A DNA stretch of 38,942 nt from a virus. The notes beneath the pieces were generated by a model. The model was not told the DNA's origin, did not search any database, and worked only from the letters and a program-made list of their open reading frames with translations. A program made the translations under genes and the position numbers. The stretch covers positions 764 through 39,705 of the IMG/VR virus record IMGVR_UViG_3300030085_005071; one strand, written 5' to 3'. Positions 4,945 through 37,949 of the stretch are shown in pieces; the first letter of the stretch is position 1; the number at the start of each line of letters is the position of its first letter.

Positions 4945-4973
4945 AAAGAGAGGTGTAATAACCTCTCTTTTTT
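4945..4973 (+). terminator. Rho-independent terminator
   Basis: A perfect 10-bp stem (AAAGAGAGGT at 4945-4954 and ACCTCTCTTT at 4961-4970) with a six-base loop GTAATA is followed by a T run. It closes the transcript of the gene at 4051-4917. Its loop also contains part of the -35 element of the next promoter. Confidence 0.85.
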
Positions 4974-4981
4974 GTTATAAT
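4953..4981 (+). promoter_or_regulatory. Promoter of the nTGTAA-N17-TATAAT class, before the ClpP-like gene
   Basis: GTGTAA at 4953-4958 and TATAAT at 4976-4981 are separated by 17 bases, and TG at 4973-4974 gives an extended -10. The -35 element overlaps the loop and stem of the terminator. The same 13 bases TGTTATAATAAAA occur before the polymerase gene at 29088. Confidence 0.75.
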
Positions 4982-5012: not shown

Positions 5013-5615
5013 ATGCTTTGGAAATATAACACGTCCCCGTTAGTTAAAGAATATGAATTACACATGCAACCGGTAATTGTGACAGTAAATAAATTTGATG
5101 AAGAAAGCGCAAAAGAGTTTAGAACTAAAATGGCCATGGCACATAACACCGGTCAAAAAGTTATCCCCATTGTTATTGATAGCTATGGTGGTCAGGTATA
5201 TTCGCTAATGTCAATGATTTCTACAATTAAGAATTCAGAATTGCCTATCGCAACAATTATTCAAGGTAAGGCAATGTCTTGCGGCGCTATTTTAGCATCG
5301 TTTGGAGAAGAAGGGCGTAGATTTATGGATCCTAATGCGACTATGATGATACATGATGTAAGTTCAGGCCAGCTAGGAAAAGTAGAAGAAGTAAAAGCAT
5401 CAGCGAAAGAGTCAGATCGATTAAATCAAATTGTTTATAAAATGATGGCACAGAATTGCGGTAAGGCAGATGACTATTTTCTTAAGTTAGTAGATAAGAA
5501 AAAACACGCTGACTGGTTTTTAGATGCAGCTGAAGCTAAAAAGCATGGTTTAGTTAATCACCTTCGTGTACCAAAAATTAGCATAAACTTGAATGTTAGT
5601 ATCGATCTTGAATAA
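5013..5615 (+). CDS. ClpP-like (S14 family) serine protease
   Basis: A 200-residue protein with the ClpP/crotonase fold. The catalytic triad is visible: S89 in GKAMSCGA, H114 in MMIHDV and D167 in HADWFLDAAEAKKHGLVN, which aligns well with the end of bacterial ClpP. The oxyanion region IDSYGGQV (55-62) is also conserved. The length matches ClpP and there is no large extension. In phages, proteases of this fold serve either as prohead maturation proteases or as ClpP-like degraders; the sequence alone does not decide. It has its own promoter and an AAAGGAG site, and lies next to a gene whose product carries a capsid-targeting-like tag, which makes a maturation role worth testing. Protease fold and triad are firm; the substrate is inference. 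Confidence 0.85.
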   Translation: MLWKYNTSPLVKEYELHMQPVIVTVNKFDEESAKEFRTKMAMAHNTGQKVIPIVIDSYGGQVYSLMSMISTIKNSELPIATIIQGKAMSCGAILASFGEEGRRFMDPNATMMIHDVSSGQLGKVEEVKASAKESDRLNQIVYKMMAQNCGKADDYFLKLVDKKKHADWFLDAAEAKKHGLVNHLRVPKISINLNVSIDLE

Positions 5616-5638: not shown

Positions 5639-6100
5639 ATGGAAGATTATGTAGTCAAGTACATTGGTTGTACAAAAGCTTTATTATCATGGTTTCATGC
5701 TGCACACCACGTGACAAAAGGAAGTGGTTTTGCAGGTGATCATGTCAATCTTTACGGAGAAATATATAACGGAATTAATGAAGACTTTGACGCACTAGTT
5801 GAAAAATTTATTGTCGTTTGTGACACAGAAAAAGTTGCATGCCCACTCAATGCAACACTAGAATCTGTTCCCTTCTTAATGCAGTTTACCTCACCTGTTG
5901 ACTTAAATCCCGATGCAATAGCAGCTGTAGGATTACAATTTATGAGACATCATGTAGATCATTTAACTAAATTGTATCATCAACTTGAAAGTAAACGTTT
6001 GTTAACATTAGGGGCAGATGATTATTTAGCTGCAGCAGCTAATCAATATGAGAAATATGTATATTTACTCGGACAAAGAGTCAAGAGTGGGAGAGTTTAA
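5639..6100 (+). CDS. Dps/ferritin-like protein
   Basis: A 153-residue protein that resembles the Dps branch of the ferritin superfamily, whose members form shells that oxidise and store iron and may bind DNA. The segment HHVTKGSGFAGDH (23-35) matches the Dps HWNVKGxxFxxLH motif, and the following LYGEIY and DALVE (51-55) place an Asp and a Glu where the ferroxidase ligands lie, with one extra residue in between. The length is typical for Dps. An RBS (TTAGGAG) precedes the ATG, and its stop overlaps the start of the amidase by one base, so the two are translationally coupled. It may protect DNA or scavenge iron or peroxide. The fold assignment is a motif-level judgement and ferroxidase activity is unproven. 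Confidence 0.65.
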   Translation: MEDYVVKYIGCTKALLSWFHAAHHVTKGSGFAGDHVNLYGEIYNGINEDFDALVEKFIVVCDTEKVACPLNATLESVPFLMQFTSPVDLNPDAIAAVGLQFMRHHVDHLTKLYHQLESKRLLTLGADDYLAAAANQYEKYVYLLGQRVKSGRV

Positions 6101-6993
6101 TGGATAAAGTTTTTTATAATCAAAGTAGTGCAGCTAATCTAGGATGGAAACCTGACTGGTTTGGAGAGAATGAATTTGATGACGATTTAGTTTTGGCAAT
6201 TGCTGCTTGGCAGAAAAAGAATGGGCTTAAGGCAGATGGTCTATGCGGACCAGGTACATTTAGGAGAATATTTACTGAGAGACAAAGCGAGATTGATAAA
6301 TATGAACCTGATCTGATCAAAGATAAAGATGAGTCTTTTATTGTGCATCAAGGTAATTTTTTTCCTATCGATTGGCCAAAGGTAGTGTTGTGGTCAGAAG
6401 AAAAAGGCTATAAAGCAAGGAAAGGATATACTTCTTATTTTGAACCACGCGATATTAAAATGTTTGTTAATCACTGGGATGTCTGCCTAAACAGTAGATC
6501 TTGTTATAAAGTGTTAGACAAGCGCGGTTTAGCAGTACATTTTTTAATTGATAATGATGGAACAATATTTCAACTTCTAGATATGAATCATGCAGCTTAT
6601 CACGCCGGTAGCAAGAAACATAATCACAGCACCGTTGGTGTTGAAATATCAAATGCATATGATCCAAAATACCAGTCATGGTACGAGAAAAATGGTTTTG
6701 GTAGAAGACCTATCATGGAAGGGCAAGAAGTGCATGGTAAAGCTTTAGGTGATTTTACGGGATTCTATGATATTCAGCTCCAGGCTCTTAAAGCACTTTG
6801 GAAAGCTGTTCATGAGGCAACTGGTGTACCTCTGAAGTGCCCACTAGATAAAAATGGCAACACACTTAAGAAAGTATCAACTTCTGCTGCAGCAAACAGC
6901 TACAAAGGTTTTGTTAGCCATTATCATTTGACAAGTAGAAAAATTGATTGTGCCGGCTTAGACATTAGTGGCTTATTAAAAGAAATAAAATAA
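6100..6993 (+). CDS. N-acetylmuramoyl-L-alanine amidase with peptidoglycan-binding domain
   Basis: This 297-residue enzyme is expected to cut the amide bond between N-acetylmuramic acid and L-alanine in peptidoglycan. Residues ~8-60 resemble a PG_binding_1 repeat (LVLAIAAWQKKNGLKADGL followed by GPGTFRRI). The Amidase_2 (T7 lysozyme-like) domain follows at ~115-290, with zinc ligand candidates H125 (VNHWD), H276 (SHYHLTS) and C284 (KIDCAGLD), and the conserved AAYHAGSKKHNHSTVGVEIS segment around 165-184. No signal peptide or membrane segment is seen. It could be the lysis endolysin or a virion-associated enzyme; the absence of a nearby holin and its place just before the tail-fibre genes leave both open. 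Confidence 0.88.
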   Translation: MDKVFYNQSSAANLGWKPDWFGENEFDDDLVLAIAAWQKKNGLKADGLCGPGTFRRIFTERQSEIDKYEPDLIKDKDESFIVHQGNFFPIDWPKVVLWSEEKGYKARKGYTSYFEPRDIKMFVNHWDVCLNSRSCYKVLDKRGLAVHFLIDNDGTIFQLLDMNHAAYHAGSKKHNHSTVGVEISNAYDPKYQSWYEKNGFGRRPIMEGQEVHGKALGDFTGFYDIQLQALKALWKAVHEATGVPLKCPLDKNGNTLKKVSTSAAANSYKGFVSHYHLTSRKIDCAGLDISGLLKEIK

Positions 6994-7107: not shown

Positions 7108-10100
7108 ATGACAGCATTAAGAGTTAATGAGTCGTCAGGATCCTTAGGGTCATTGCAAATTGCTGACGGTTTTGGTGGGTTTTTATCAGGAAGCTTAAAA
7201 GCCGGGCCGAACATAACTATATCAAATGACGGGACAGGAAGCTTCGCAATAACAGCTAGTCTTTCTGCTGGAACTGCTATTGGTGAAGCTGAAGATGGAA
7301 CTTACGCTGACGGTCTTTTTACTGATTTCGCAATTGACACACCAATTGGAACTGCAGTGGACAGATTTAACGAAGTATTAAAAGCTCTCGCTCCTGCACC
7401 TGCACCTAACTTAGACGACATTAATTCTCTAAATACCGGGACTAACCTTTTCTTATCTTTTGGTACATCTAATGACCAATCATCTGAGACCCCATCGTAT
7501 ATTTCTGTTGCTGGCTCTGCTGGTGTAGGGTCTGCCGTCGACGTTAACGGTGCGTATAACGTAACTACTAGTAGTAACAATATTAGACTAGGTGCTTTTA
7601 ACGGTGACACACACGTGAGCGGCGTTTTAAACCCTGATGTTATTGCTAATAGTCAAGGCAACGGTGTACAGAATTATCCTGACTTTTCTTTTGGTGACAG
7701 TGAAGATGGTGTTTTGCGGTTAAACGTAAATGGAACAACGATAAAAGAGATAGACTTAACTGTTGCTTACATAGGTAGTGGCACGTCAGGATTAGGTACT
7801 GGTTCACATTTAGACAGTAATGGGTCAGGTTTTAATTTCTTTTCGCAACCGACAACAGGGACTTTTTCAAATGGGAACGCTTTTAATTCTTTCAGACATA
7901 GAACAGGACAGTTTGTTGTAGCTTCAGGTAGCCAAAGGCTAGGGTGGAATTACGCAAGAGTTTTACATGTTAGAAGCGGATCAACATCTACAACAAACTA
8001 TATTGAATGGGTTAACGATGACAATGAAGATGCACTCTCGCCCACAGGAAATTCAATTAGCTTTGAAGGTAGTGGAAGTGTACACCTGTCAGGTGTTGAG
8101 TATTTTAGAAGTGGTAGTGCTAAATATAAGACACGCGTGTCAAACGCATACAAATACGTCTATGATAATAACAACATAACATTTACGACTAGTAATAGTT
8201 CTGCTGAGTCTAGTAGTCCTTCCTTTACAATATCAGGACAATCAAAGCCAGTAATCGGTGTATCTGAAAATCATACTAAAGTTTTACACATAACTGGATC
8301 AGGTAATGTGACAGCAAATTACTTTATAAGCGGTGCTGTGACAGCAGGTGTCAACGTAACCCACCCTTTCAAGTCAAATCTGTCGAATGCTGCTCAGTCA
8401 ACAACTACTGGCATTCTAATGTACAACCTGTCTAATACGTCAACAAACACATCGGAGACTTTTAGAAGAGAAAATTTTAGAATAGTCTCTGGTGCTTATA
8501 ATACACAATCATCGTTGACAGACTCGGGTAATGTTTGGGATAGTACTGTCCATATGACAGCATCAAACGGTGCACACACAAACGGATTACAGTTCTATAA
8601 TAGGAGATTGTATTCTCCGACCAATACACTTAGATCTGGTGACTTCCGATCAACATCCGATGGTGGTAAATTAGATAACGCGCCAAATGAAAATCCTAAT
8701 TATTCTGGGGAATCCGGGCAGCGTACTTTTTACAGATGGTTTAGAAATACAACAGGATCTACTAAACACGATCTTAGTATCACAATTAACGGTTCGGGAA
8801 CAACTATTGTGCCAGCTGCAACCGCATTAAATAGTGGTAGAATTCGTGTATTTGTTAAGTTTCCAAATAATGGGACAAGAGAGACAGGTTGGTTAGACCT
8901 TGCATCAGAGTTTGTTTTAGACTCTTATTCTGATAATGCAGGTGCTCATACTGCCAACGGATCTTTAAGTTTTGATAATTCACTTAACGCTACAAATATT
9001 GTCACCTTAGGTACAGTCGGGGTTGCAAATAACGAGTATATAGGCATAAGAGTAGAAGCTGATGCAGGTTGGACAGGATATATCAGTCAAATTAGCGTAA
9101 CTTTTGGCGCGGGTACTGGAACAATCACAGCAATACCTGATCTGGACGACATAGACTGCAACGATGATGGTGTAGACTGCAACCTGTCATTTGGATCGTC
9201 TAAATCAGTGTCAGGTTATACAAATGTTGCTGCTTCGGCAGGAATAGGTAGCGCTGTCGACATAAACGGTTTGTACGAAACAGACTCAAACTCCAACAAT
9301 CTAAGACGTGCAGTGTTTGCACTTGACACAATTATTGAGGGAGACCTCAACGAAGACGTATCAGCTAACTCACCAGACTACGTTGCCAATGCTTTCTCAG
9401 ATGCAAATAGCGGCTCACTTGTCTTGGAAGTAAACGGTTTAGACTTACATACAGTTGAACTCACCGGTTCATATAATTTAGTTGGGACAGGAAACCCGGG
9501 TGCCGGCTCAGGAACTTCTTTCACGGGTAATAGCGGATTCTTTGATTTAAGTACATGGAAACCTGCAGAGTTTGACAATGATGTACCTTATTATTTAGAA
9601 ATACAAAGAACAGGTAAATACAGAGTACACACAGCTGATCAAAGAAATGGTTGGAATTATGCTAGAGTAAAGCATGTTGGATCTTGGGGTACAAGGGTAA
9701 CTAATTATGTTGAATGGGTCAATGATAATAATGCTGATGCACTTGCTCATGCTGGTACGTCGATATCTCAATTTGGAGATGACGACATATTTCATCTGAG
9801 TGGTGTAAAGTACTTTGTCAATCCAACTGGGAGTATACGTACGCGCATCAGTAACATTTATAAAAATGTATACTCAGACGCATCAGACGCTATTTCCCTA
9901 ACCAGTCTATCAAATGTCAGTGCGGTTTCTATTGTGCAGTCTGGAGTCGGCCTTTCAAGCACAAAAACAGAAAATGACGGTGCGTCACCACTCCAAACAT
10001 TAAATACAAATGCAAATTCTGAAACTGAAGTACTTCACGTAACTGGAACAATTCAGTTTAATCAGTCGACATCTTTAAGCGGTGCATTTACAAGCGTTTC

Positions 10101-12474: not shown

Positions 12475-14868
12475 ATGGCTTCAAGAACACAAATGCGTTT
12501 ACAACAGTTAACAGGGTCATTTAGTAGCCTTAAAACAGAAGCGCAACAATACGTAACCCCAGCTGCAGCTGCAGCATTGACGGGATCAGATCTTCAAGAC
12601 GTCTTAGGCGCTTTTGGAGCTGCTTTAAATAGAATTCACGGTGCGGCATCAGACGAACCGTTTAACGCAACAGCTGGGCACTTTTTAAACTCAGCAACTA
12701 CTGACGGCGCTGACGACGCTGGTGCGATCAAACTTTCAGCAGCAAACGGTGGTATTGGTATCGCTTTTAATGACGCGAAAGACCTTTGGATTGAAGGTGG
12801 TCAGACAATGGTCGTTGCTAATCACGACACAGCTGATGCAATTAAGCTTCACGCTGACGCAGGAAGTTCACAAACAATCACTGTATTGAATGATGAAGGT
12901 ACGGCAGCCGCAGCAATCGCACTTACTGCAACAGCTGGTGGTGTTGATATCGACGCAGCAGCTGGTAAGGACGTTGCGATCAACGGTGGTCAAGTTATTC
13001 TTACTGGTTTGGATGACACAGCTAGCTCAATTTCATTAGTGACAGATAACGGAACATCTGAAACCATCACAGTTCAAGCACTATCAAGTGAGGCTGATGG
13101 AGCAATTACACTTCAATCACCTAGTGGTGGTATCTTATTAGACACTAACGCTGCTGGCAAGAAAATTCATTTGGATTCTGAAGGTTCTGTTGATATTGAT
13201 GCAGTTAAAGGACTTACAATCTCAAATGCTTCTGCTGCTGATGCTGACGATATGACAATTGAAGTAACAGGTGCAACTAATTCTAGTTTACATTTAGCAT
13301 CTTCGGGTACAGCTGCTGACGCATTAACAATCTCAACTTCAGCTGGTGGTATGGATATCACAGTTGCAGGTGCAGCTGCAGGTGAAGACTTAGATATTAC
13401 TGCTAATTCATCAGTTAACATTACATCGTCAGAAAATATTGCTGATTCTATCGTGATTACTGGTGGTGGTGGTGTTGATATCGTAACTCAAAATGATAAG
13501 GATCTAGATATTACTTCTGCTAACAATGTCAATATTGATGCCCAAGGTACTACTTCTGGTGACGGTGTTATTGTTACATTAGGTTCAGATACAGCTGACA
13601 CAATATTTAAAGTGTTGAACAACAGTGGTCAAGACGCTTTTATTGTTAACGGTGCAAAAAATGCTCAAGTTGAAGGTAACTTAACAGTAGCTGGTAACTT
13701 AGATATTAACGGAACGACAACAACAATCGACAGTGTTAACCTTACTGTACAAGATTCAATCATTGCATTAGGCGTTTCTGGATCTGATGAGGGTTATTCA
13801 ACAGTTGGTGATCGTGGTATTCTTTTTCCAAGAGGCACAGATGCTTCAGCAGTTGCAGGTTTTTGGTGGGATGGCTCTAGATTCCAATTAGCAACGTCTA
13901 AGACCGGTCCAAACTCTGGTTCTTTCCAGACAGTCGACGCTTACAACTCTTTAAAGCTTAATAAGATTGAATTTGATGATAACACAAACCACATTGCACA
14001 AAGCGGCGGTAATTTAACAGTCTCAGCTGATGCTAGCTTGGTATTAGACGTGGCTGCGAATATTGAACTTAATGCTGACGGCGGTATTGTAGAGTTTAAA
14101 GATGGAGCTGTGTCTATGGGTACTATTCAACACAATAGTGCTAATAAGACATTGATTGTATCTTCATCGGCCGATGATTCTATTACTCTTGAAGCACAGT
14201 CAGGTGAAGTTTTCATTAGTGATGATGCAGGCGGATCATCTGCTGGAATAAGTGTAGCTACTGCCAACGAGATTAAATTTGGACACACTGACCAGGGAAC
14301 ACACGATGTAGGGTTCTTGAATCTTAAAGATAACAACTTTTCAATTCTTTCTGCTTCTATAGGACTCCAAATCGACGCCGGTGCCACTCCTGGTCTTCTT
14401 AGACTTAAGAATGGCGCACAGAACGTTGGTTTTAAGGCTCCAGGTACTTTGTCGAATGGGTACGACATGCTCTTCCCGAATCCTGGCACCCCCCTATCTG
14501 CTACTGTTGGTAAGGTTTTAAAAGTTGCAAGTCAAGCTGGTAGTGATTTAACATTGGAATTTGCTGATCCAAATTCAGGCTTGGAAAAAGCAGTTCGTGT
14601 TATTACAGGATCTGCCGGTATCCCAGCTGGGACAGCGCTTTCAGTTGCAACAGCAGATATCACTGCAGGTGATCAGGTGACTAGTTTATCAACTGCAGGA
14701 TCACAGGGATCTACACTTGATGTTTTTGTCAACGGACAGCTTTTAGTTTCTGGTTCTGAAACAGAACGTGCTAACGGAGATAGAGATTACGTAATTTCTG
14801 CAGCACAAGCTCTTAAGTTTGCATTTGCACTTGAGGAAGACGACGTAGTTCAAGTAATTAAAAGATAA
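12475..14868 (+). CDS. Repetitive beta-helix-type fibre/structural protein
   Basis: A 797-residue protein rich in Ala, Asp, Ser, Thr and Gly. Residues ~60-420 are loose repeats that alternate ITV/SLV strands with VDIDA, MDITV, LDITA and similar, the signature of a beta-helical stem. The segment NLTVAGNLDINGTTTTIDSV followed by VQDSIIALG (about 402-440) is a familiar fibre motif of marine and cyanophage-like phages. The C-terminus (DVFVNGQLLVSGSE, then DYVIS and DDVVQVIKR) resembles that of the protein at 10919-12082. It has an AAGGAG site, two candidate promoters upstream and a terminator downstream, so it may be a single-gene, highly expressed unit. The identity as fibre, whisker or capsid decoration is not decided. 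Confidence 0.75.
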   Translation: MASRTQMRLQQLTGSFSSLKTEAQQYVTPAAAAALTGSDLQDVLGAFGAALNRIHGAASDEPFNATAGHFLNSATTDGADDAGAIKLSAANGGIGIAFNDAKDLWIEGGQTMVVANHDTADAIKLHADAGSSQTITVLNDEGTAAAAIALTATAGGVDIDAAAGKDVAINGGQVILTGLDDTASSISLVTDNGTSETITVQALSSEADGAITLQSPSGGILLDTNAAGKKIHLDSEGSVDIDAVKGLTISNASAADADDMTIEVTGATNSSLHLASSGTAADALTISTSAGGMDITVAGAAAGEDLDITANSSVNITSSENIADSIVITGGGGVDIVTQNDKDLDITSANNVNIDAQGTTSGDGVIVTLGSDTADTIFKVLNNSGQDAFIVNGAKNAQVEGNLTVAGNLDINGTTTTIDSVNLTVQDSIIALGVSGSDEGYSTVGDRGILFPRGTDASAVAGFWWDGSRFQLATSKTGPNSGSFQTVDAYNSLKLNKIEFDDNTNHIAQSGGNLTVSADASLVLDVAANIELNADGGIVEFKDGAVSMGTIQHNSANKTLIVSSSADDSITLEAQSGEVFISDDAGGSSAGISVATANEIKFGHTDQGTHDVGFLNLKDNNFSILSASIGLQIDAGATPGLLRLKNGAQNVGFKAPGTLSNGYDMLFPNPGTPLSATVGKVLKVASQAGSDLTLEFADPNSGLEKAVRVITGSAGIPAGTALSVATADITAGDQVTSLSTAGSQGSTLDVFVNGQLLVSGSETERANGDRDYVISAAQALKFAFALEEDDVVQVIKR

Positions 14869-20824: not shown

Positions 20825-20853
20825 AAGCGCTATTTTGTAATAGTGCTTTTTTT
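20825..20853 (+). terminator. Rho-independent terminator
   Basis: AAGCGCTATT (20825-20834) pairs with AATAGTGCTT (20839-20848, one G-U pair) around TTGT, followed by five T residues. It ends the operon before thyX. The loop and right arm hold the -35 element of the next promoter. Confidence 0.83.
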
Positions 20854-20863
20854 GTTGTATTAT
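20835..20863 (+). promoter_or_regulatory. Promoter of the nTGTAA class, before thyX
   Basis: TTGTAA (20835-20840) and TATTAT (20858-20863) are 17 bases apart, and the -35 element lies in the terminator loop. The gene start at 20898 has AAGGAG. Confidence 0.68.
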
Positions 20864-25047: not shown

Positions 25048-26166
25048 TTAACGTAATTGACGACGTATACTGTTTCTAATTAATCTTCTAATATTTGATT
25101 CATTAAGACGGTATACGTTTTCATTTTTAGGTTCTTTACTCGCTGCTTTTGCGGTTGTTCTTTTAAGGGCAGTACCACCTTTTTGTGCATCCTGTAGATG
25201 TGTTGTGGTGTAAATAAAGTCTTGGTTCGAGGTCACGTCATCTGTAAGATCCTTGATTGTCTTTTTCATCTCAGGGCTTATATTAGCACCAGTGACTGGT
25301 ACATTGCGAGCCACACCTTTTGCTTTATCTGAGAACATGGCTGTAATTGTTTGACGACCAACCACACCATCTTTTGATAATTTGTTTTTCTCCTGGAATT
25401 CCTCAACCGCTTCTTTTGTCTTAGGCCCAAACTTCCCGTCAACGTCAGCGCCTAATTTCATTTGAACAGCCATAACTTGCATCTTTTTTTCATTTGTACT
25501 AGCGTTCATCCCTTGCTTGAGCATCGCTCCTGACTTACCTGCTAGGGTATCTTTAAATAGATCCTTGCCACTGACGTTCTGATCATCAATGCCTGGGACG
25601 TCTCTAAATTTTATATCCCATATTGGATCAACTTTGCTGTGAGGAACAACTTTTTGTTTTACTCTTTTTCTGACTACGGCCTGACCACCTTTTCCAACTG
25701 TCCCTTTATAGTCCGGGTCACTTGTTGTTCTTTTTGTTGCAAGAAATGTACCGTCTTTAGTATTTGCTTTCTCAATCGCTTCTGGGTCTCTGGCATATAT
25801 TTGTGCTTTCTCTAATTCTTTTTCCTTAGCTTTTCCTGAATAGTAATTTGCACGTCTTTTCTCTGCACGTTTAACGATTTGATCGATCATAGACGTCACA
25901 GCGTCAACACGTCCTTTTTCAATTAAAGATTTGATTATATTAGCAACACTACCAACAAATAAGCGCGTGTCGTTTGATATGCGTTTATCATCCTTGAAAA
26001 GTTTTACTAATTTTCCATATTCTTTTTCAAAACCTTCTACACCTTTTTCTTCTAATGCGATATCTTGAATTCTAACAACTAACGCGTTATTTTGATCTGC
26101 TTGTCCGTAATTGTCTGGATCGTTTAGCAGCTTATCGAGTGCTTGCCTATTTTGTCTTCTACTCAT
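25048..26166 (-). CDS. Virion-type protein with PG-binding domain and C-terminal targeting-like tag
   Basis: A 372-residue protein and the only gene I support on the minus strand. Residues ~240-285 form a PG_binding_1 repeat (VQMKLGADVDGKFGPKTKEA, then VEEFQEKNKLSKDG and VVGRQTI). The N-terminal ~150 residues are helical and charged, followed by a basic Lys/Arg-rich linker. The C-terminus is YRLNESNIRRLIRNSIRRQLR (352-372), which looks like the targeting peptide of its neighbours placed at the opposite end, with L-N-E at 354-356 as a possible cleavage site. AGGAG precedes the start. Its orientation sets it apart from all other genes here and suggests insertion or separate regulation. Function is not known. 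Confidence 0.75.
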   Translation of the reverse strand: MSRRQNRQALDKLLNDPDNYGQADQNNALVVRIQDIALEEKGVEGFEKEYGKLVKLFKDDKRISNDTRLFVGSVANIIKSLIEKGRVDAVTSMIDQIVKRAEKRRANYYSGKAKEKELEKAQIYARDPEAIEKANTKDGTFLATKRTTSDPDYKGTVGKGGQAVVRKRVKQKVVPHSKVDPIWDIKFRDVPGIDDQNVSGKDLFKDTLAGKSGAMLKQGMNASTNEKKMQVMAVQMKLGADVDGKFGPKTKEAVEEFQEKNKLSKDGVVGRQTITAMFSDKAKGVARNVPVTGANISPEMKKTIKDLTDDVTSNQDFIYTTTHLQDAQKGGTALKRTTAKAASKEPKNENVYRLNESNIRRLIRNSIRRQLR

Positions 26167-27457: not shown

Positions 27458-27839
27458 GCTGTTTGAAAAGTACCCAAAGATCTTTAAGCAGCGCGAGTTA
27501 GACAGGGCTGTGACCGCGATGTGTTATGGTATCTCTTGCGGTGACGGTTGGTACGTGCTGATCGATGAAATGTGTGGAAATATTCAAAATCGCATTGAGA
27601 ACGTAAACAGGGGTAAACCTCCTGAAGAACATATCGACTGTCAGGCAACTCAAGTAAAAGAGAAGTGGGGCGGCCTACGTTTTTATGTTCAAGGTAGCGA
27701 TGATTTTATTGATGGAATTATTGACTTAGCAGAATCGATGTCTTATCGAATCTGTTCTGAATGTGGTAATCAATCTATACCTCAAAAAAAACGTGGGTGG
27801 ATATATACATTGTGTGATAATTGCAGGATTAATCAATAA
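27435..27839 (+). CDS. Conserved phage/bacterial protein with C-terminal zinc-ribbon-like Cys pairs
   Basis: A 134-residue protein with a pattern that recurs in uncharacterised phage and bacterial proteins: LFEKYPKIF at the start, GDGWYVLIDEMCGNI, QVKEKWGGLRFYVQG near the middle, then a C-terminal CSECG and LCDNC pair with GWIYT between them. The two Cys pairs could bind one zinc. AAGGA precedes the ATG, inside the end of the preceding gene. It ends the epimerase operon. The function is unknown. Confidence 0.68.
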   Translation: MKKELQDKLFEKYPKIFKQRELDRAVTAMCYGISCGDGWYVLIDEMCGNIQNRIENVNRGKPPEEHIDCQATQVKEKWGGLRFYVQGSDDFIDGIIDLAESMSYRICSECGNQSIPQKKRGWIYTLCDNCRINQ

Positions 27840-29060: not shown

Positions 29061-29067
29061 GAAAAAA

Positions 29068-29096
29068 GTGTAATCTTAGGCTCCTTGTGTTATAAT
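29068..29096 (+). promoter_or_regulatory. Promoter of the nTGTAA class, before the polymerase gene
   Basis: GTGTAA (29068-29073) and TATAAT (29091-29096) are 17 bases apart, and TG at 29088-29089 gives an extended -10. The boxes and the following AAAA match the promoter at 4953-4981. Confidence 0.76.
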
Positions 29097-29115
29097 AAAA
29101 TAAAAACACAAGGAG
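29081..29115 (+). promoter_or_regulatory. Perfect inverted repeat covering the -10 box and ribosome binding site
   Basis: CTCCTTGTGTT (29081-29091) and AACACAAGGAG (29105-29115) are perfect complements, with a 13-base spacer. The right arm contains the Shine-Dalgarno sequence of the polymerase gene and the spacer contains most of the -10 box. In an RNA read through from upstream the site would be sequestered, while an RNA started at the local promoter (near 29103) would lack the left arm and be free. It could also be a DNA operator. Confidence 0.7.
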
Positions 29116-29124
29116 TTTTCTTAT

Positions 29125-32100
29125 ATGGACATCAAGTTAATTACACCACCCGATCGTTTTGTAGGTTTTCACGGTCATACAGGCTTTTCTGTCTTTGACG
29201 GCTTAGGTTATCCGTCTGACCATATTGACTTTGTACTTAAAAACGGCATGGACGCTTGGGCACTGACTGATCACGGTAACGGTTCTGGTCTCGCTCACGC
29301 CTACAAGCATGCAGAAAAGGTAAAGAAGAAAGGACACAAGTTCCGTCAAATTTATGGTTGTGAGTTTTATTTCGTGCCTTCCCTCAAGGACTGGCGTGCT
29401 GATTACGAACAATCAAAGATCGATCGTGCCAATGCCAAGCTTAAAGCACTTAAAGAGGAGGAAGAAGGTGGTCATATCATCGAGAACGAAGAAGAAACAA
29501 AGTCTTTTGATCTAGGTAAAGACGAATGGAAACGACGTTATCATCTGGTAGTTACTGCACAAAACCGTGAAGGTTTAGGCAATCTATTCACACTAATTAA
29601 ACGTGCATATACTGACGGCTTCTATAGATATCCTCGCATTGACTTTGATCTGCTAAAACAGTATGGTAAAGGACTTAATGTATCTACTGCTTGTCTAGGT
29701 GGTATATTTTCTAATCGTATTATGCGCGGTAATGCACTTAAAATGAGTGACGAGAAAATACAACAAGAACTGACATATTTATCTGAGCGTTTTGTTGATG
29801 CTGTAGGTGAGGATAACTTCTATCTTGAAATACAGTTTAACAGGCTCAAGCAACAACACCTTGTAAATCATCACTTGCTGCGTCATTCACAGCAAACTGG
29901 TTTGCAGCTTATCGCCACACCGGATTCACACTATTATTCACCTGATAAATGGGAGGCAAGAGAGCTTTATAAAAAATTAGGGTGGATGGGTAATGACCCA
30001 AGTCCGTTACCAGAGTTTGAAGATCTTAAATGTGAACTATATCCAAAAAATGCTGGACAAATGTGGGATGAATTTACACGACATTATGAAGAATACAAAG
30101 ACACATACGAAGGTTTCGAAGAAAAAATTAAAGAGTCTATTGAAATTACACACGATATTGCATGGGAAAAGTGCGAAGACTGTTGGATTGATACTTCTGT
30201 TAAGCTTCCCGATTTCAACAACCCTAATCAGACTGCTTTCCAACAGCTTGCGCAAAAAGTTAAAAAAGCGCTTGTTGAGGAAGGACTTAATGAAAAACCT
30301 GAGTATGTTGAAAGAGCAAAGCACGAACTCGAAGATATCAAATTCCTCGGATTCGAAAACTACTTCTTAGTAATGTATGAGGTGTTCCACAAAGCTGCTG
30401 ACCACACACTGTTCGGAGCAGCTCGTGGTTCTGGTGGCGGATCACTTGTAAATTACTTGTTAGGAATCACGCAGGTCGACCCGCTTAAATACGACTTGCT
30501 GTGGGAGCGTTTTCTTGGTCGACACAGGACGTCCTGGCCCGATATCGACTCTGACGCTGGTGATCGTGACGCACTAATTAATGCAGCACGTGAATTATAC
30601 GGTGATGAGGCGGTTATTCCTGTTTCAAACTTTAACACACTCAAGCTTAAATCACTTGTAAAAGATATTGCTAAGTTCTATGGCGTCGACTTTGGTGAAG
30701 TAAATAAAATGACCGGTCCCCTCCAAGACGAAGTGATGTCACAAGCTCGTGATGAAAATACCGAGAAGTCTGTGTTTGTGCTCAAGCACGAAGATTGTAT
30801 GACATACTCAAAAGGTTATCGTGAGTTTATGGAAAAATATCCAAAAGTTAAGGATCACATCGAAGCTCTGTTTATGCAAAACCGTTCGATAGGTCGACAC
30901 GCAGGTGGTGTCATCATTGGCCCGCCCCAAGCATTAGAACAATCAATGCCGATTATTGGTGTTCGAGGCGAGCTACAAACTCCTTGGACAGAAGGTATGA
31001 ACTTTCGCAATCTTGAAGACAACGGCTTTATTAAGTTTGACTTCTTAGGCTTGACGCTACTCAAAGACGTAGAAAACTGCATCCGTCGTATTATTACACG
31101 TGAAACAGGCACTGAACCTACATTCCTCGAAATACGTGACTGGTTTGACAAACATCTCAACTGTCGTTATGTTGAACAAGATGATGAAGAGGTATGGAAG
31201 CATGTGTATCATCAGCGCCGCAAGACAGGTGTGTTTCAATTCACTGCAGAAGGTGCGCGTCGATTCTGCGAAGATGCCAAACCAACAACGATTATTGAGT
31301 TAGCCGCATTGACTGCGATATATCGACCTGGTCCACTTCGTGCCAATGTGCATAAGAAATATGTGAAAGATAAGCTCCGCGCTGATGAAATACATTATGC
31401 ACACCCTATCATTAAAGATATTCTTGGCCCTACGTTTGGTCACGTTACTTTCCAAGAACAGTTCATGCTTCTTGCGCAAAAGCTTGGTGGTTTCACTCCT
31501 GCTGAATCTGATAAGCTGCGTAAAACTCTTGTTAAGAAGTCTCTTGATACGATGGGCAAGAAAGGTGATGAACGTGAAGCTGCTCGTGTCAAGTTTGTAA
31601 CAGGCGCAAAAGAAATAAATGGTGTGCCTGAGCATGTATCACAAGAGTTGTGGGAACGTATCGAGTTCTTCTCTGTATACGGTTTCAATAAGTCGCATGC
31701 TGTCGCTTATGCTATTGGTTCTTACTACGCTGCTTGGCTTCACACATATTATGAAACAGACTGGTTAGGTACTATTCTCGAATCAGAAAACAATAATCCA
31801 AATGCACTATCAAAAGCAATCGCTGAAATCAAAGAAATGGGTTATCGTATTGAATTACCGGATGTAAATGAATCAGGTACATACTGGCAGTGGTCCGAAA
31901 ACAAGCAAGCATTTATCCCACCGCTGACTTCTATCAAGGGTGTAGGTAAAACTGCTGTTGTTGAAATCATGAAAAACAGACCATATTCATCAGTCGCTGA
32001 CATGTTATTTGATGAAAGCGGTAAGTGGCGCCACTCTAAACTCAATAAAACCGGTTTTGCTTCTCTGTGTCAAGTTGAGGCTTTTAACGGTCTGCAAGAA

Positions 32101-37920: not shown

Positions 37921-37949
37921 ATGTAAAAATAATTGCATGTGTGTATAAT
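37921..37949 (+). promoter_or_regulatory. Promoter of the nTGTAA class, before the kinase-like gene
   Basis: ATGTAA (37921-37926, immediately after the stop of the preceding gene) and TATAAT (37944-37949) are 17 bases apart. A GAGG site lies before the ATG at 37971. Confidence 0.68.

Follow-up and report, generated by a model that had tools for sequence, protein, structure and literature searches.

A hairpin wrapped round the promoter of a phage DNA polymerase gene and its probable role in silencing read-through RNA

The dnaE gene of the virus studied here is preceded by a promoter that lies within a hairpin, and we consider it likely, from the sequence, its computed folds and its relatives, that this hairpin silences RNA read through from upstream, by occlusion of the Shine-Dalgarno (SD) sequence and probably also by partial termination. 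The window, by which we mean the whole stretch of viral DNA that was analysed (38,942 nucleotides, positions 764 to 39,705 of IMG/VR record IMGVR_UViG_3300030085_005071), contains the features collected in Table 1. According to the proposed mechanism, a polymerase running in from the upstream gene would make RNA that contains both arms of the hairpin. In such RNA the SD would be paired, no polymerase protein would be produced from it, and the hairpin together with its U-tract would probably end a part of the read-through transcripts. RNA begun at the local promoter would be without the left arm; it would not terminate at this place, its SD would not be hidden, and it would be translated. The outcome would be that DnaE synthesis is tied to its own promoter, whichever gene lies upstream.

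Table 1. Features of the dnaE upstream region and of a second terminator-promoter overlap (positions in the window)
Feature	Position	Strand	Remarks
-35 box GTGTAA	29068-29073	+	Promoter class GTGTAA-N17-TATAAT, 17-nt spacer; conservation among relatives starts here
-10 box TATAAT	29091-29096	+	First base in left arm, remainder in hairpin loop
Predicted transcription start	29103	+	Inferred, 7 nt past the -10 box; in the loop, beyond the left arm
Left arm	29078-29091	+	Perfect part 29081-29091; inside promoter spacer
Right arm	29105-29118	+	Holds the SD
SD of dnaE, AAGGAG	29110-29115	+	Pairs with CTCCTT in read-through RNA; inside right arm
T-rich TTTTCTTAT	29116-29124	+	Candidate terminator U-tract and SD-to-ATG spacer, 3' of the stem
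dnaE, phage DNA polymerase III alpha subunit, 1172 aa	29125-32643	+	Pfam PF07733, PF17657, PF02811, PF14579
Upstream co-directional gene, 398 aa	27864-29060	+	Stop codon 7 nt before the -35 box; putative source of read-through RNA
Terminator AAAGAGAGGT-gtaata-ACCTCTCTTT-TTTG	4945-4981	+	Lies over -35 box GTGTAA (4953-4958; inner stem and loop); -10 box TATAAT (4976-4981) after it

The promoter assignment was examined by pattern counts. In the window's own 76.7-kb record the pattern GTGTAA-N17-TATAAT has three exact matches, all on the coding strand and one of them probably intragenic. It was found in the records of 13 of the 14 relatives, where the spacer is almost always 17 nt and the matches of a record lie on a single strand, while the reversed pattern, taken as control, gave 2 matches. 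Most of the matches stand directly 5' of an SD and a start codon. Taken together, the counts, the spacing, the strand bias and the placement before genes suggest that these phages have a class of promoters with this pattern, to which that of dnaE belongs, and we infer that the pattern functions as a promoter in them. At dnaE, TGT precedes TATAAT, with its TG one base before the hexamer (extended -10). The preceding operon, too, has a GTGTAA on its upstream side (about 26204), where the -10 box is poor. The preliminary description had placed the promoter in such a way that local RNA would be without the left arm; the -35 box and its spacing are right for this, with a predicted start near 29103.

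The hairpin is formed by a perfect 11-bp inverted repeat, whose arms CTCCTTGTGTT (29081-29091) and AACACAAGGAG (29105-29115) enclose a loop of 13 nt. Five of the 11 perfect pairs are G-C, and outwards to 29078-29118 the stem gains one A-U and two G-U pairs, which brings it to 14 pairs when G·U is counted. The repeat had been reported earlier as covering the SD, with the -10 box starting in its left arm; both points are correct to the base, since the left arm ends with the first base of TATAAT, and most of the box is in the loop. A computed fold of 29061-29130 gave -19.6 kcal/mol (z = -4.7), a value as low as which was reached by none of 200 dinucleotide shuffles. No other perfect inverted repeat in the 38.9-kb window reaches 11 bp around a loop of 3-20 nt (Markov sequences contain 0.15 such repeats on average), and the stem score of this one was reached in none of 2000 randomizations with the left and right flanks shuffled (p = 0.0005). 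When Rfam leader families were searched, the best matches were far under the gathering score. A genome-wide repeated motif was also considered and rejected: apart from the two arms, ACACAAGGAG has a single exact occurrence, in front of the gene at 12475, which is chance level.

It can be seen from the computed ensembles that the SD is unpaired with a probability of 0.00 in read-through RNA versus 0.45 in RNA starting at 29103, the SD of local RNA thus being only partly open in the model. Because TTTTCTTAT follows the stem, termination has to be weighed beside SD occlusion. A spacer that follows GGAG is as a rule rich in A (49% on average), and at least five T among the first eight bases are found in 2 of 36 spacers of this genome. 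The tail score of the hairpin is 3.32 or 4.84 depending on the choice of stem end (the higher value with GGAG as the end), where the other intergenic terminators of the window score 4.2-5.4. As a terminator the window hairpin is middling, with a long loop and an interrupted tail; since the U-tract is interrupted and the loop has 13 nt, termination may be weak. Between 26250 and 29125 a scan revealed no other convincing terminator, the only other match (27659-27684) being intragenic and weaker. On present sequence evidence we consider SD occlusion the stronger of the two effects in this window, with a probable contribution from termination.

Close relatives of the window were then compared. The window clade comprises six members, the window and five phages whose dnaE is 91-94% identical to that of the window; identity to the dnaE of named phages is only about 25-30%. 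A pattern scan with GTAATCTTAAACTYCYT over viral contigs returned 29 stretches, and the element was present in only 5 of them, all already known as window-clade relatives. Further scans for close relatives left the window clade at six members and enlarged the clade of phage L051 only a little. Within the window clade upstream conservation begins exactly at the -35 box: mean pairwise identity is 0.94 in the initial ten promoter bases, but 0.25-0.27 at 20-60 nt before the promoter. The genes upstream of dnaE are unrelated among the members, one pair excepted, and the 398-aa gene of the window, for which no Pfam or PHROG family was found, is exchanged for other genes in most close relatives. Conservation that starts at -35 while the upstream genes differ indicates that promoter, hairpin and gene travel as a unit. 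Since the upstream neighbour is so often exchanged, it is plausible that the independence of dnaE serves to insulate the dosage of polymerase against such exchanges.

Pairing of the arms is also maintained in these relatives. In an anchored alignment of the six sequences, 92.7% of the positions of a 16-pair stem are standard pairs, versus 42-55% in slid versions of the alignment. Two pairs are changed on both sides, and three one-sided changes give G-U-type pairs. The number of sequences is small, and the shuffle control is only moderately exceeded: 13 of 500 shuffles reach the covariation score and 75 of 500 reach the count of doubly changed pairs. Covariation of the arms in related phages had been named as a check in the preliminary description; most of the arm changes observed preserve pairing, in support of its proposal. 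All six members have the SD inside the stem, with an unpaired probability of 0.00-0.20 in the long RNA versus 0.25-0.45 in the local RNA, and all combine this with the T-rich tail, although the U-tracts are poorer in L003 and L006.

A wider search yielded 80 dnaE loci. The same promoter is found at many of them, and a strong hairpin surrounds the -10 box in ten phages beyond the window clade (L051, L052, L053, L054, L060, L061, L074, L077, L092 and L105). The hairpin of L051, for example, reads CCTCACATTT-TATAAT-AAGTGTGAGG-TTTCTTTTTT and that of L053 reads CCTCATGTTT-TATAAT-AAACATGAGG. Arm sequences are unrelated between lineages, yet complementary within each; between L051 and L053 both arms are altered jointly, from CCTCACA/TGTGAGG to CCTCATG/CATGAGG. 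On the DnaE tree the trait of a -10 box in the loop needs six changes and occupies at least four separate parts. After similar sequences had been collapsed, stem scores of 20 or more were found at 12 of 31 dnaE promoters (0.12 expected), compared with 4 of the 99 promoters elsewhere (0.78 expected), a difference with a Fisher p of about 5e-6. Many dnaE relatives, such as L063, L067 and L089, have the same promoter without such a hairpin. A hairpin with the -10 box in its loop is preferentially a dnaE feature, though not a universal one.

In the ten phages beyond the window clade T-rich sequence follows the stem on its 3' side and the SD is located past the hairpin, and in the distant cases where it was computed the accessibility of the SD is alike in long and short RNA. 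With these properties the distant hairpins look like intrinsic terminators that carry the next promoter in their loop. Hairpins that cover the SD and have no T-run were found at dnaE of L094 and L096, at an orf in L124 and at the thymidylate kinase-like gene (tmk) of L002; the comparison of T-runs between the classes is partly circular, because the T-run helped to assign them, while the stem-score enrichment is not. In the wider family termination appears to be the commoner form, and a T-run with the SD outside the hairpin in most distant relatives suggests that the shared function is the silencing of read-through. The earlier proposal that read-through RNA alone forms the hairpin and hides the SD is supported for the window, but as an account of the arrangement it is incomplete, since most other dnaE relatives with the -10 box in a hairpin loop would terminate instead.

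Some further structures were observed at dnaE loci. Upstream of dnaE in L113 and L114, stems of 14-15 bp enclose the SD and the ATG with a long inner loop (e.g. CGGGTTCCTTCC...GGAAGGAACCCGATG), and translational control is possible there. At the dnaE promoters of L094, L096 and L124 separate strong terminators end right at the -35 box, their T-run merging into TTGTGTAA. The dnaE frames of L077, L112, L195 and other loci are interrupted or unusually long, which suggests inteins or introns.

Related arrangements also occur at other genes. The terminator-promoter overlap at 4945-4981 of the window precedes the gene of the head maturation protease at 5013, and a similar overlap is seen at 20825-20863 (TTGTAA, TATTAT). 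In L138 and L150, 3-kb loci with other GTGTAA promoters, stems like GTGCGCAGG-tgtaa-CCTGCGCAC hold the -35 box in or near the loop. The hairpins of L124 and L002 outside dnaE, which cover the SD and have the -10 box in the loop, lie at position 1368 (a 152-aa orf) and position 9067, respectively; at the thymidylate kinase-like gene of the window (37971), with a promoter at 37921, no such hairpin was detected. Elsewhere in the window an endolysin-like gene on the minus strand (25048-26166) stands alone amid plus-strand genes, and a second endolysin-like gene is located at 6100-6993.

The structure might instead serve chiefly to end transcription of the upstream operon, as an intrinsic terminator overlaid on the dnaE promoter to save space, with the SD in its arm being incidental. 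The clear terminators, with the SD outside, of most distant dnaE relatives that have the -10 box in the loop speak for such a reading, as do the overlaps of terminators with the -35 box at 4945 and 20825, the lack of any other convincing terminator between 26250 and dnaE and a tail score which, with the stem ended at GGAG, is comparable to those of other terminators. We nevertheless think it unlikely, though it is the alternative to be taken most seriously. The SD has been kept within the stem in six of six window-clade members, and the left arm opposite the SD is the best conserved half, while the interrupted tail, the long loop and the poorer U-tracts of L003 and L006 weigh against it; moreover, the hairpins without a T-run at dnaE of L094 and L096, and also in L124 and at tmk of L002, cover the SD.

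Two alternatives invoke a bound protein. A DNA operator blocking the -10 box, which the preliminary description had offered as its alternative, would require a dimeric protein, perhaps DnaE, that binds the palindrome and represses the promoter. The palindrome does overlap the spacer and the -10 box, and the T4 polymerase gp43 is known to be autogenously controlled, though at the RNA level (PMC3014915). However, the arms are unrelated across lineages despite a conserved promoter and gene, several changes yield G-U pairs, which are meaningless in DNA, the T-run is on the 3' side only and the spacing between the arms ranges from 4 to more than 12 nt, so that an operator seems very improbable. Slightly more improbable still is an autogenous translational control like that of T4 gp43, in which a phage protein, for instance DnaE, would bind the hairpin in the RNA. 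It would suit a polymerase gene whose SD is covered by a hairpin, and it is in line with the long stems that span SD and start codon at dnaE of L113 and L114, but the local transcript would be without the left arm, and neither loop nor stem sequence is conserved across lineages. A hairpin that silences read-through RNA remains the preferred reading.

More tentatively, and with rather less confidence than in the function at the window itself, we propose that the promoter-in-hairpin module insulates the polymerase gene in a way that keeps fold and position while the arm sequences turn over completely. Its output would switch between termination and SD occlusion, and the window clade would be an intermediate that does both with one helix. 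If this is true, the promoter-in-hairpin switch described for a small number of T4 genes also serves an essential gene of replication in unrelated phages, and a gene can be made independent of upstream sequence by termination or by SD occlusion interchangeably. This would be relevant to genes at module boundaries whose neighbours are often exchanged, as at dnaE here. A -10 box within a hairpin loop would provide a searchable signature for self-insulated genes, and also a compact design for insulated promoters.

Several known systems bear a likeness to this arrangement. With an intrinsic terminator overlapping a promoter it shares a GC-containing stem, a T-run after it and a co-directional upstream gene. 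It differs from an ordinary intrinsic terminator in that the -10 box of the next gene is in the loop, for which reason RNA from that promoter cannot terminate at the hairpin, and in that the right arm in the window clade is also the SD. A literature search on promoters inside terminator loops found nothing relevant; its coverage was limited and it is no proof of absence. The ESAS elements of Cluster K mycobacteriophages likewise have inverted repeats just 5' of start codons, beside a motif that contains the SD, and no function was assigned to them in the describing paper (PMC3203893). The arms of ESAS follow one consensus over many genes per genome, whereas the arms described here have no common sequence and the arrangement occurs preferentially at dnaE. 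The translational operator of T4 and RB69 gp43 also belongs to a DNA polymerase gene and is an RNA hairpin near its start (PMC3014915). That hairpin lies about 40 bases upstream, has a conserved loop and needs gp43, whereas the stem described here covers the SD and has a promoter inside.

The closest likeness in working is to T4 gene e, where experiments have established that a hairpin contains a late promoter in its loop, the SD being hidden in the early long RNA and the late RNA being without the left arm (PMC3014915). Further hairpins with an internal late promoter are those of I-TevI, segB and Aeh1 mobE (PMC2988022). We recomputed T4 e, with its promoter TATAAATA in the loop, and obtained an unpaired probability of the SD of 0.00 in the long RNA and of 0.27 or 0.74 in the short RNA. 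The window element, by analogy, appears to resemble T4 e, I-TevI, segB and mobE in its working, which does not imply common descent: as at gene e, the promoter is within the hairpin, the SD is predicted to be paired in read-through RNA and the left arm would be absent from local RNA. Unlike gene e, the gene concerned here is that of a replicative DNA polymerase, its promoter is of the type GTGTAA-N17-TATAAT with a -35 box, and a T-rich tail follows the stem; moreover, the relatives of the window seem to swap SD occlusion for termination at the same position.
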